The position numbers and the translations under genes were made by a program. DNA of 35,806 nucleotides from Micromonospora sp. HM5-17 (GTDB taxonomy: Bacteria; Actinomycetota; Actinomycetes; Mycobacteriales; Micromonosporaceae): positions 1-35,806 of the forward strand of contig NZ_RJWA01000017.1 of the NCBI RefSeq assembly GCF_003762835.1. Direction: 5' to 3'. Numbering within the stretch: position 1 is the first letter of the stretch; each line of letters begins with the position of its first letter. Below are positions 24,819 to 27,940 of the stretch, one piece after another. Under the pieces are notes generated by a model. It saw only the letters and a program-made list of their open reading frames with translations. It was not told the origin of the DNA and made no database searches.

Positions 24819-25298
24819 ATGTCTGAAAACAAGACTCCTGCACAAAACACCGATAACCAGGTTCCGGCTTCCGAGGAGCGCGAGGTTAATAACAACCTGG
24901 AGACCCAGTACGGCACCACCACCATCGATGATGTCGTGGTCTCTAAAATTGCCGGCATTGCAGCCCGTGAGGTTTCCGGCGTGGATTCCCTGGGTGGCGG
25001 CGGCGCCCGCATGATCGGCAATATTCGCGAGTCCTTCGGTGCTTCCGAGGACGTCCGCCAGGGCGTAGACGTTGAGGTAGCAGAGGGCACCGCCCGCATC
25101 GAGATTGCAATCACTGCTGAGTACGGCGTGGCCATCCACGAGCTCGCTGAGGCTATTCGCCGCAACATCATGAATGCTGTAGAGCGCATGACCGGCCTGA
25201 GCGTCGAGCGCGTCAACGTTGTTGTTCACGATGTCAAGCTGCCTAAGGAAGAGTCCGAGTCTGAAGACCAGGCTGCTTTGAACCAGGGTCAGGCCTAA
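24819..25298 (+). CDS. Asp23/Gls24-family envelope stress response protein
   Basis: Asp23 proteins are abundant cytoplasmic proteins held at the membrane by AmaP and linked to cell-envelope or alkaline stress in Firmicutes. The 159-residue product has a disordered N-terminus (1-30), then the Asp23 domain: TTTIDDVVVSKIAGIAAREV (about 32-51), DVEVAEGTARIEIAITAEYG, and an amphipathic helix followed by VERVNVVVHDVKLP. An acidic tail ends the protein. A GAAAGG site lies 11 bases before the ATG. It is the first and most canonical member of a six-gene cluster that includes an AmaP-like anchor. Confidence 0.92.
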   Translation: MSENKTPAQNTDNQVPASEEREVNNNLETQYGTTTIDDVVVSKIAGIAAREVSGVDSLGGGGARMIGNIRESFGASEDVRQGVDVEVAEGTARIEIAITAEYGVAIHELAEAIRRNIMNAVERMTGLSVERVNVVVHDVKLPKEESESEDQAALNQGQA

Positions 25299-25303
25299 GC
25301 CCA

Positions 25304-25651
25304 ATGCCTGAGCCCCGAGCACATTTCGAGCTCGAGGTAAGCCACGCCCGCGCTATTGCAGAGGCCGTCACGAAGGTCCGCGGCGTCGCTGCACTCGACG
25401 GCGGTTCGTTCGGTTCGGTGAGTTTGTACCTCCCAGGCGAGCGCATCGTCGGCATGCGGCGGCCCGATCCGCGCGATGATCGCCACCTGCAGATCAATAT
25501 CCGCGTCGATATCAGCGCGGCGCCGGACCTTTATGCCTTGGCAGAAGATATCCGGTTCGCCGCACGTGGGGCATGTCCCGAACTGCAACGCATCGACGTT
25601 GAGTTTTCTGACGCCGTGGATGGCTTATCCGCTGCTCCATCGAAGGAATAG
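25304..25651 (+). CDS. Small Asp23-like protein
   Basis: I recognise no named family. The 115-residue product reads as a lone, divergent Asp23-like domain: an N-terminal helix and GVAALDGGSFGSVSLYLPGE, a central strand LQINIRVDISAAPDLYALAE and a final strand ELQRIDVEFSDAV. It lies 5 bases after the canonical Asp23 gene and 2 bases before the next gene, so it is part of the same operon. Possible roles are co-assembly with, or capping of, the Asp23 layer; this is inference from fold and context. Confidence 0.75.
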   Translation: MPEPRAHFELEVSHARAIAEAVTKVRGVAALDGGSFGSVSLYLPGERIVGMRRPDPRDDRHLQINIRVDISAAPDLYALAEDIRFAARGACPELQRIDVEFSDAVDGLSAAPSKE

Positions 25652-25653
25652 AT

Positions 25654-25848
25654 ATGAAAAATTACACCACTTTGGGCATCATTTCCGGCCTTGTTCTTGC
25701 CTTCTTTTTGTACCTAGGCTGGGGTCCTACCCTGCTCGCCGTACTCCTTGCTGCCATTGGCGGAATCGTGGGAGCACACTTTGATGGCCGTATCGATCTC
25801 ACCTCTGTGTGGAATGGCCTCATTGGTAAGGAGAAAGGCCAAGGTTAA
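25654..25848 (+). CDS. DUF2273-type small membrane protein
   Basis: The 64-residue protein is almost all membrane-embedded, with two close hydrophobic segments (about 5-20, TLGIISGLVLAFFLYLGW, and 24-42, LLAVLLAAIGGIVGAHF), then GRIDLTSVWNGLIGKEKGQG. DUF2273 proteins are regularly encoded beside Asp23 and AmaP, which fits here. A GAAGGA ribosome binding site overlaps the end of the previous gene, and the stop codon overlaps the next start by one base (TAATG). Function is unknown; a membrane scaffold role is an inference. Confidence 0.85.
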   Translation: MKNYTTLGIISGLVLAFFLYLGWGPTLLAVLLAAIGGIVGAHFDGRIDLTSVWNGLIGKEKGQG

Positions 25849-26813
25849 TGACAGATAGTTCCACTCAGGGCCACACGCGTATCTCGCTGCGGACCATGGA
25901 ACGCATCGTTACCGCCGCGATTGCTAGCGTGCCCGGCACCAAGGCCATTGAGGCCAAGCTAGCGGGCATCGGCGGCCGCGGTTTTCCACGGGTCTCGGTC
26001 CAAATGGACTCGGAGCGCGAGGTAGCGGCGGTCAACGCCACTATCGGCGTGGTTTGGCCCTCGCCGGTTACTACGGTGGCGGAACATACCCGCGCCGCCA
26101 TTTCAGAAGCCATCGCGGCTCATACCGGTTATTCCACGACGCGCGTTAATGTCACCGTCGGCGGTTCCGTTCCAGGCAGGCGGGTAACAGCGGCAGAAGT
26201 GGAGCAGCGTCAGGTTGCTGCTGCCGTCGCGCCGCACATCACGCCCTCGCCAGTCTGGCAGCCGGTCACTGCAGAATCGGTCAACGTACGCAGCATTGCC
26301 ACACCGGAGAATACACCGGTGCGCAGCGTCACTGTCCCGGACTCCGGCATCGCGGTGCGGTCCGTAGGCACTCCGCGCGAGGCCGAGGTACGCAGCATCT
26401 CTGCAGATCTCCCTGACCACCAATTACGGGAAGTCTCTTCCCCAGGTGAGCAAACGCTGCGGCCGCTAAAGGAGCCTAAGCCGGTACACGTTCACAGCGT
26501 GGCGGCGCCGCGCCCAGCCAAACTGGCTCCCAGTGGACAGGTTCGCCCGCTGTCGCGAAAAATACAGGTTTCAACTCCTCGGCCACAGCCGCTGCGTGAT
26601 ATCGAGATCCGCCACGAATGGTCACCGCGCCGTGTGCAGGCCCCTAAGTCCGCTCCGGTGAGAAAGGTACAAGCCCCTCGACCACAAGCCCTCAAGCGTA
26701 TTGAGGTCACCCCGGCCAACCCTCGCCCGCTGCATGTGGATGCGCCGCGGCCGGAACCGTTGCGCGCCATTTCCATAAACCCCTACCGCCCACAAGGAGG
26801 CAACCATGGCTGA
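25848..26813 (+). CDS. Asp23-like protein with a Pro/Arg-rich repeat tail
   Basis: The 321-residue product has an Asp23-like N-terminal domain (about 10-108: ERIVTAAIASVPGTKAIEA, SVQMDSEREVAAVNATIGVV, TTRVNVTVGG) and a linker. A long tail (about 145-317) is built from roughly fifteen 11-12 residue units of the form (V/L)R-x-(I/V)-x-x-P, for example VRSVTVPDSGIA, VRKVQAPRPQA and LRAISINPYRP. The tail is strongly basic and rich in Pro, Arg, Val and Ala, with no Cys. There is no signal peptide or membrane segment, so it is presumably cytoplasmic and membrane-associated through its partners. Both ends overlap neighbouring genes. I know of no described function for such a tail. Confidence 0.8.
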   Translation: MTDSSTQGHTRISLRTMERIVTAAIASVPGTKAIEAKLAGIGGRGFPRVSVQMDSEREVAAVNATIGVVWPSPVTTVAEHTRAAISEAIAAHTGYSTTRVNVTVGGSVPGRRVTAAEVEQRQVAAAVAPHITPSPVWQPVTAESVNVRSIATPENTPVRSVTVPDSGIAVRSVGTPREAEVRSISADLPDHQLREVSSPGEQTLRPLKEPKPVHVHSVAAPRPAKLAPSGQVRPLSRKIQVSTPRPQPLRDIEIRHEWSPRRVQAPKSAPVRKVQAPRPQALKRIEVTPANPRPLHVDAPRPEPLRAISINPYRPQGGNHG

Positions 26814-27372
26814 ACAGCACATGCCTGAACACTTTGGGCAACAGCCGAAGGCGTCTCCAGCGGCGCGAACATGGGCCGTGATTCTAGGGCTGCTTCTGCT
26901 CGCCGCGGGCGTCGTCGGCGTGCGCGAGACGTGGCTTGTAGGTTCCGGTTCCGATGCTCAATCATGGGTGCAGCCAGTGCTTAATCTCATCGCCACTGAG
27001 CAGCTGCAAACCTGGATGATCTGGGCTGGTATCGCATCCATCATCGTCGGCCTTATCTTCCTGTTTGCAACACTAAAGACGCGCCGTACAACGCACCTGC
27101 AGCTGGCCTCCGATACCGCGTCTATGTGGATGCGGCCGGTAGATATCGCTCGCCTATCTTCGGCGACTGCTCGCCGCGTACCGGGCGTTGCCTCCGCCCA
27201 GACCTCAGCGGATAAAAAGACTGCCAAGGTCACCGTCAATGGTGATACCGACGATGCCGAGCTGCAGGCCCGAGTAGAGACCGCGGTTAAGCAATGCCTG
27301 GCTCACTTGAAGAATCCGCCGCAGGTCACCGTAGCTGTAGAGAAGATTCCGGAGTTGGATAACAATGTCTAG
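26806..27372 (+). CDS. DUF6286-type membrane protein with Asp23-like C-terminal domain
   Basis: The 188-residue product has two membrane segments (about 24-43, WAVILGLLLLAAGVVGV, and 66-86, WMIWAGIASIIVGLIFLF) and a soluble C-terminal domain (about 105-183: RPVDIARLSSATARRVPGVA, TAKVTVNGDTDDAELQA, PPQVTVAVEKI) that resembles an Asp23-like fold. An AGGAGG site precedes the ATG, which overlaps the previous gene by 8 bases; the next gene also overlaps by 8 bases. The AmaP-like topology suggests a second membrane anchor for the complex. Confidence 0.82.
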   Translation: MAEQHMPEHFGQQPKASPAARTWAVILGLLLLAAGVVGVRETWLVGSGSDAQSWVQPVLNLIATEQLQTWMIWAGIASIIVGLIFLFATLKTRRTTHLQLASDTASMWMRPVDIARLSSATARRVPGVASAQTSADKKTAKVTVNGDTDDAELQARVETAVKQCLAHLKNPPQVTVAVEKIPELDNNV

Positions 27373-27940
27373 AAAACTTGCTACTTTTGACCGCATCCTG
27401 CTCGGCCTGCTGGGAATTATCCTCATCGCTTTGGGCGTGTGGCCCATCCTTATCCACTTCAACGTGGAGTTTGCCAAGTATTTAGCCCTGTGGGTGGACC
27501 ACGATGCGTGGAAGACATTGGCGGACAATGACTGGTGGGTCTGGGCGTTGGCCGGTGGCTCCGCGCTGCTGCTTATCGTAGGTCTGTGGCTCGTGGTAGC
27601 TAACCTGCGCCACCGTCGCTTTAATAACGTGGAGTCTGCATCGTCTAATGACAAGGGATCTATCACGACGTCGATGAATGCTATTGCCGGCGCCGTGGCT
27701 CAGGACCTAGATGGGGTCAAGGGCGTCGAGCACGTGGAGCGGCTCGTGGCTTATGACCGCGCCCGCCCCACCCTGCAGTACACGGTGACGGCTAATCCGG
27801 ACACCCCGGTGGAGCGTCTTACCGGCGCAGTGGAGACCAATGAACGCGATTTCCGCGCGGCCTTTCCGGACGCGGACTTGGACACCATTTACAAGCTGCA
27901 ATTCAGCAAGGTGGGCCCGCTGAAGGATCTATCCGAATAG
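27365..27940 (+). CDS. amaP: Alkaline shock membrane anchor protein AmaP
   Basis: AmaP tethers Asp23 to the membrane. The 191-residue product has two membrane segments (about 11-30, ILLGLLGIILIALGVWPIL, and 58-81, WVWALAGGSALLLIVGLWLV) followed by a cytoplasmic alkaline-shock-like domain (about 96-185: TTSMNAIAGAVAQDLDGVKG, LQYTVTANPDTPVERLTGA). It is the last gene of the cluster. Its 3' end overlaps the convergent unknown gene by 12 bases, so no dedicated terminator fits between them. Confidence 0.88.
   Translation: MSRKLATFDRILLGLLGIILIALGVWPILIHFNVEFAKYLALWVDHDAWKTLADNDWWVWALAGGSALLLIVGLWLVVANLRHRRFNNVESASSNDKGSITTSMNAIAGAVAQDLDGVKGVEHVERLVAYDRARPTLQYTVTANPDTPVERLTGAVETNERDFRAAFPDADLDTIYKLQFSKVGPLKDLSE

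Follow-up and report, generated by a model that had tools for sequence, protein, structure and literature searches.

A genus-wide tail of 11-residue units on an Asp23-family protein of Corynebacterium

One gene in the 35,806 bases of DNA analysed here (the window) encodes an Asp23-like protein, of a stress-protein family associated with the cell membrane, that continues, after its domain, into a long tail in which a short motif rich in Pro and Arg seems to recur every 11 or 12 residues. We asked whether this array is real, how widely it is kept, and what it could do for the protein that bears it. The original prediction had proposed a strongly basic repeat selected for length and periodicity, possibly binding an anionic polymer or SH3/WW-like partners.

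The locus and the origin of the window

The window is one contig (C9) of a 6.17 Mb assembly, against 8.3-9.8 Mb in the genomes of its six genus mates. Ribosomal protein L3 was matched twice in this assembly, on C1 and on C9, and the window shares 95.8% DNA identity over 8,963 bases with Corynebacterium kefirresidentii strain SB. Therefore, the contig is a contaminant from Corynebacterium inside the assembly of another actinomycete, and the comparisons were made from a C. tuberculostearicum genome (G008, holding locus L004). The gene of the tailed protein belongs to an operon-like series of genes that overlap or stand close together, encoding in order Asp23, a 115-aa protein, DUF2273, the tailed Asp23, DUF6286 and AmaP. 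The features discussed below are:

24819..25298, + strand: the operon's first Asp23 protein, 159 aa (PF03780, 98.8 bits)
25304..25651, + strand: third, short Asp23-like paralogue, 115 aa (from its relatives' scores with an iterated Asp23 profile and a weak structure model)
25654..25848, + strand: DUF2273 small membrane protein, 64 aa (22.8 bits, below the cut-off of 25.4)
25848..26813, + strand: Asp23-family protein with the repeat tail, 321 aa (open reading frame, stop included)
25866..26165, + strand: Asp23 domain of the tailed protein, PF03780, residues 7-106 (28.2 bits, cut-off 28; dN/dS 0.051 over residues 1-112)
26271..26780, + strand: array of 12 scored units of 11-12 residues, residues 142-311, irregular at 222-243 (held-out motif model against 1000 shuffles)
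26745..26780, + strand: terminal unit PRPEPLRAISIN, residues 300-311, the kind of unit most conserved across the genus (unit composition, dN/dS, tail counts)
26806..27372, + strand: DUF6286 membrane protein, AmaP-like, 188 aa (49.4 bits, cut-off 35; AmaP model 32 bits, below its cut-off of 55)
27365..27940, + strand: AmaP membrane anchor, 191 aa (NF033218, 61 bits, cut-off 55)

The PF03780 score of the tailed protein is just over the curated cut-off, and the operon also holds AmaP, above its cut-off, and DUF2273, below its own. An Asp23 profile built from the genus gave 124 bits, from a starting alignment that included the tailed protein itself. What sets the protein apart is its end: 215 residues follow the profile match, in place of the short end seen in relatives outside the genus. 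The array thus lies after the Asp23 domain, where the original prediction had put it. Searched by sequence against solved structures, the whole tailed protein had no match up to E = 1. The first Asp23 protein had six weak ones, the best being ModE (30 residues, E = 0.007), which we took as chance.

The window's own 115-aa paralogue matched nothing in Pfam or NCBIfam. Its same-position relatives reached up to 60 bits with the iterated Asp23 profile (up to 42 in another search), and a weak model (mean pLDDT 57) gave the order helix-strand-strand-helix-strand, which the domain of the tailed protein, also in a weak model, shares with one extra helix. Judged by these profiles, the protein between Asp23 and DUF2273 is Asp23-like itself.

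The repeat array and its distribution

We looked for periodicity in residues 146-316 by autocorrelation. Lag 11 gave z = 4.2 and lag 23 gave z = 6.5, neither being matched at its lag in 2000 shuffles. When the best of all lags was taken from each shuffle, the 99th percentile was 3.6 and the maximum 4.22; therefore, lag 23 survives the correction, and lag 11 is at its edge. A 12-position motif model, seeded on [LV][RK]x[IV] and trained on orthologs all from outside the window's clade, found 12 units at residues 142-311 with a score of 96.1, against at most 7 units and 19.0 in 1000 plain shuffles and at most 6 units and 17.0 in 1000 shuffles with the prolines fixed. Of the window's 129 stop-to-stop frames with a length of 100 aa or more, the tailed protein's frame scored highest, at 29.4 per 100 aa, the next reaching 3.6. 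These results consolidate the predicted array as a genuine, significantly periodic repeat. The count of about fifteen copies stood for 12 of them, and three weak positions (226, 237 and 261) were not recovered. The statement that the tail lacks Cys is true for the window, but 12 of 115 tails have one.

We found no DNA tandem repeats in the window's gene, and the units, judged at the sequence level, therefore look old and diverged. An origin of the unit from the last strand of the domain was considered and rejected: the motif scan returned the same 12 units with or without the domain, so the model finds no unit inside it. As a known repeat, the window's tail gave in Pfam only DCX (E = 0.071, 13.7 bits against a cut-off of 22) and in the PDB one chain at E = 1.2, both taken as chance-level, and the tail of L122 alone had no Pfam match. 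A search for a second protein with the repeat in 12 Corynebacterium genomes returned none at E < 0.1, the nearest matches being at E = 0.115 (G024) and 0.157 (G118). In G024 this search missed the gene's own tail, so its sensitivity is limited and a diverged second user of the motif is possible.

Among 201 genomes of the genus, the tailed protein was matched in 155 and Asp23 in 158. Loci were examined in 156 of the latter (G034 and G066 were left out), and in 152 of these 156 the tail had at least one unit. The tails extend 31-336 residues after the Asp23 domain and hold 1-22 units (median 7.5 over 152 distinct tails), with at least two units in 148 and four or fewer in 43; the four single-unit tails are near the shuffle level, which is about one unit per shuffled tail. 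For these genus counts the motif model was trained on the 115 sequences that it scored, the held-out test being that of the window's clade only. The 115 are the distinct second-Asp23 sequences, window included, left from 124 records after L001, L042 and L043 were set aside and identical copies removed. The comparison of copy number across orthologues thus shows a repeat present genus-wide, and close species share the repetitive tail.

The period is also maintained across Corynebacterium. Successive units are spaced by 10-12 residues in 676 of 1086 cases and by 21-23 in 199, and in the 100 tails of at least 90 aa lag 11 was the commonest best lag (56 tails, against 26 for lag 22 or 23), with z > 2 at lag 11 in 84. 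Indels between 192 close-relative pairs, which are non-independent and come in large part from the window's clade, have length peaks at 11 (46), 22 (32) and 33 (38); the non-multiple lengths were 1 (19), 3 (16), 16 (16), 17 (16), 4 (7), 7 (7) and 15 (6), with others fewer. In a tree of the two domains short and long tails are interspersed, and therefore unit number changes readily. The range of residues and units given above leaves selection on length, the other half of the original proposal, unsupported.

Some lineages depart from this pattern. One clade (L107, L121 and L248) has another unit in its tails, roughly 13 residues long and patterned on R-V-I-E-P-[R/K]-V-D, followed by an end motif that resembles the usual kind more closely. 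Five loci (L254, L263, L265, L266 and L267) are of another Asp23 type, whose second Asp23 protein has no tail. In the sequence examined, G031, G123, G144 and G207 have a tailless Asp23 locus alone, and G023 has one tailless and one tailed. An Asp23 match was absent from 43 of the 201 genomes, and a C. glutamicum control genome had none.

To see the family outside the genus, loci were collected through DUF6286, which matched in 96 of 200 genomes of the order and 78 of 197 of the class. We took 98 loci, namely 70 of the 96 order matches (the 30 best-scoring and 40 selected lower-scoring ones) and the 28 best-scoring of the class; L181 and L208 had no Asp23 hit, leaving 96 loci, among which stray Corynebacterium are possible. 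As in Corynebacterium, Asp23 proteins stand directly upstream of DUF6286 in these loci, usually with a short Asp23-like protein between. Unlike in Corynebacterium, the last Asp23 protein stops 3-34 residues past the domain in 93 of the 96, without a unit; three exceptions, L210, L214 and L220, have 180-198 residues there and no more than one unit-like match. No Asp23 frame in the 96 loci had more than one such match (seven loci had one and 89 none). The expectation that Asp23 proteins elsewhere have no such tail is therefore borne out among the relatives sampled.

The short ends outside the genus give a hint on the origin of the tail. The C terminus is R-V-x in 61 of the 96 outside loci, and a similar tripeptide, [RHK]-V-[RQH], ends 16 of the 152 distinct Corynebacterium tails. 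Before a C-terminal R-V-R, short tails form a graded series of one unit (L270, with R-R-V-R), two (L224 and L232), three (L229) and four (L233). Considering both the ends outside and this series, we infer that the tail arose in the Corynebacterium lineage, probably by growth between the domain and an old R-V-x-type end or at that end.

The repeated unit and the possible roles of the tail

We then describe the unit itself. Over 1058 units (89-121 were found in each of 10 shuffled sets), the two most informative positions are 5 (Leu/Val) and 8 (Val/Ile), with about 2.1 bits each, followed by 6 (Arg/Lys, 1.2 bits) and 10 (Val/Ala/Thr/Ile, 1.0 bit), with Pro also conserved at 0, 2, 4 and 11. The last unit is closer to this consensus, with Leu in 86%, Arg/Lys in 79%, Ile/Val in 91% and Pro in 80% and 70%, against 57, 64, 89, 43 and 37% in all units. 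The strict core L[RK]x[IV]x[IVL] occurs within the last 50 residues in 105 of 152 tails, and a looser pattern in 129. The conserved signature, read from these alignments, is a Pro-flanked Leu/Val-Arg-x-Val/Ile, sharpest in the last unit.

Selection among nine close relatives points to the same end. dN/dS is 0.166 over the whole tail and 0.027 over residues 301-321, lower than the value listed above for the domain, and the fastest stretch of the tail, residues 151-180 (26298-26387), reaches 0.63. Within units of this close clade the value is 0.143 for the hydrophobic core, 0.185 for the x positions and 0.252 for Arg. On the time scale of this clade, so small a contrast between core and x positions, together with the less constrained Arg, counts against a sharp motif.

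AlphaFold2, run with 11 close sequences, gave a mean pLDDT of 46.8, with no strands and a pLDDT of 33-49 in the repeats, and one short helix directly after the domain. The model is weak even for the domain (ten-residue means of 48-80) and therefore supports disorder weakly. As far as this prediction goes, the tail is probably intrinsically disordered and flexible.

We favour, with moderate confidence, the explanation that the tail is a disordered array of linear motifs acting multivalently and that, on an Asp23/AmaP assembly associated with the membrane, its last unit would be the chief docking site. In this view a unit spans about 11 residues and forms a short extended motif flanked by prolines, P-x-P-x-x-[L/V]-[R/K]-x-[V/I]-x-[V/A/I], which a protein partner would recognise. 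This partner would dock at the last unit, and the upstream units would serve as weaker copies and spacers giving avidity and reach, with whole units gained or lost. The assembly would be held at the membrane through the neighbouring AmaP, a putative attachment by analogy, and protein binding by the tail is likewise putative. Since the repeat was seen in this gene of this operon only, the partner may be sought first among the operon's Asp23-fold modules. In agreement with this reading are the periodicity, the genus-wide units, the indel peaks at whole units, the conservation of the last unit and the place of the gene in an Asp23/AmaP operon. Against it count the dN/dS of the core, barely below that of the x positions, the strict core being found near the end in only the 105 tails mentioned, the clade with units of about 13 residues, and the weakness of the structure model.

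The docking explanation can be extended: the units may dock Asp23, the short paralogue, DUF6286 and AmaP, the operon's own modules of Asp23 fold, so that one tailed protein would bridge many membrane-bound subunits and unit number, through gain or loss of whole units, would set the mesh of a self-crosslinking, Corynebacterium-specific envelope-stress lattice. We regard this extension as speculative and unlikely.

Alternatively, the tail could be a passive spacer, a low-complexity entropic brush grown by unit duplication, in which bulk and reach matter without a specific ligand. The very labile unit number, the high dN/dS at residues 151-180 and a unit core barely more constrained than the linker positions in the close clade would all fit a brush of this kind. 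On the contrary, the unit signature persists genus-wide with no repeats in the DNA of the window's gene, the final 21 residues are under a constraint like that of the folded domain, and the shortest tails retain the motif rather than generic Pro-rich sequence. We therefore think a mere spacer rather unlikely.

That the tail acts through its basic charge, as a binder of lipid headgroups or of an anionic polymer, is very unlikely in our estimate. The tail is indeed basic in the window, with a net charge of +14 over 215 residues, the median over 152 distinct tails is +7, and about 64% of units have Arg or Lys. Nonetheless, "strongly basic" was an overstatement, since net charge ranges from -14 to +36 and is zero or negative in 22 of the 152 tails (for example in the acidic-tail orthologs L039, L040 and L044). 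A conserved net positive charge, as a polyanion-binding tail would show, is thus not found despite the positive median, and the Arg is less informative than the hydrophobic positions. As positive charge is unconserved, binding of anionic polymers is unlikely as a general role. For SH3-like partners, also suggested, the class II ligand motif is PxxPx[RK]; its required Pro is found in 13% of units, which leaves classical SH3 class II binding unsupported. Least probable is a folded repeat, for example a beta-solenoid or a polyproline-II bundle of 11-residue rungs, for which the strong, regular periodicity and a possible super-period (the 26 tails with best lag 22 or 23) speak, but which fits poorly with the low-confidence, strandless (and weak) model of the tail, with spacings of 10-13 residues interrupted by longer breaks, and with the 43 tails of four or fewer units, few for a solenoid.

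Comparison with known systems

In conclusion, this is a genuine, genus-wide tail on a known family, and the earlier interpretation based on charge and length does not generalise. The tail is undescribed in the literature searched, which was covered mostly at the level of titles and abstracts, plus parts of PMC6954212, PMC5437119, PMC7456259 and PMC10358988. In the parts of these sources consulted, two Asp23-family proteins are reported in C. pseudotuberculosis (PMC7456259) and an asp23 gene is named in new Corynebacterium species (PMC10358988). The closest known system within the Asp23/Gls24 family is Asp23 of Staphylococcus aureus, which is anchored at the membrane by AmaP, forms filaments in vitro and has a cellular distribution compatible with filaments, its molecular function being called still unclear (PMC6954212). 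Corynebacterium shares with this system the Asp23 domain and an operon with AmaP and a DUF2273 relative; it differs in the tail of 11-residue units and in having several Asp23-like proteins per operon, whereas filaments and membrane attachment are known from S. aureus.

The conserved terminal motif offers a defined peptide for fishing out partners, the natural range of copies a means to probe valency, and the tailless relatives the controls. More generally, the tail may be an example of a multivalent linear-motif tail on a bacterial envelope protein, apparently expanded by whole-unit duplication from a single motif or a small number of them.

The overall layout also recalls FtsZ, which consists of a polymerising domain, a disordered linker of variable length and a conserved C-terminal docking peptide. 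The likeness lies in a folded module able, in the Asp23 family, to assemble, followed by a length-variable region, probably disordered, and a conserved end. The two are not homologous, and in Corynebacterium, unlike in FtsZ, the variable region is made of copies of the terminal motif itself, whose docking is putative.
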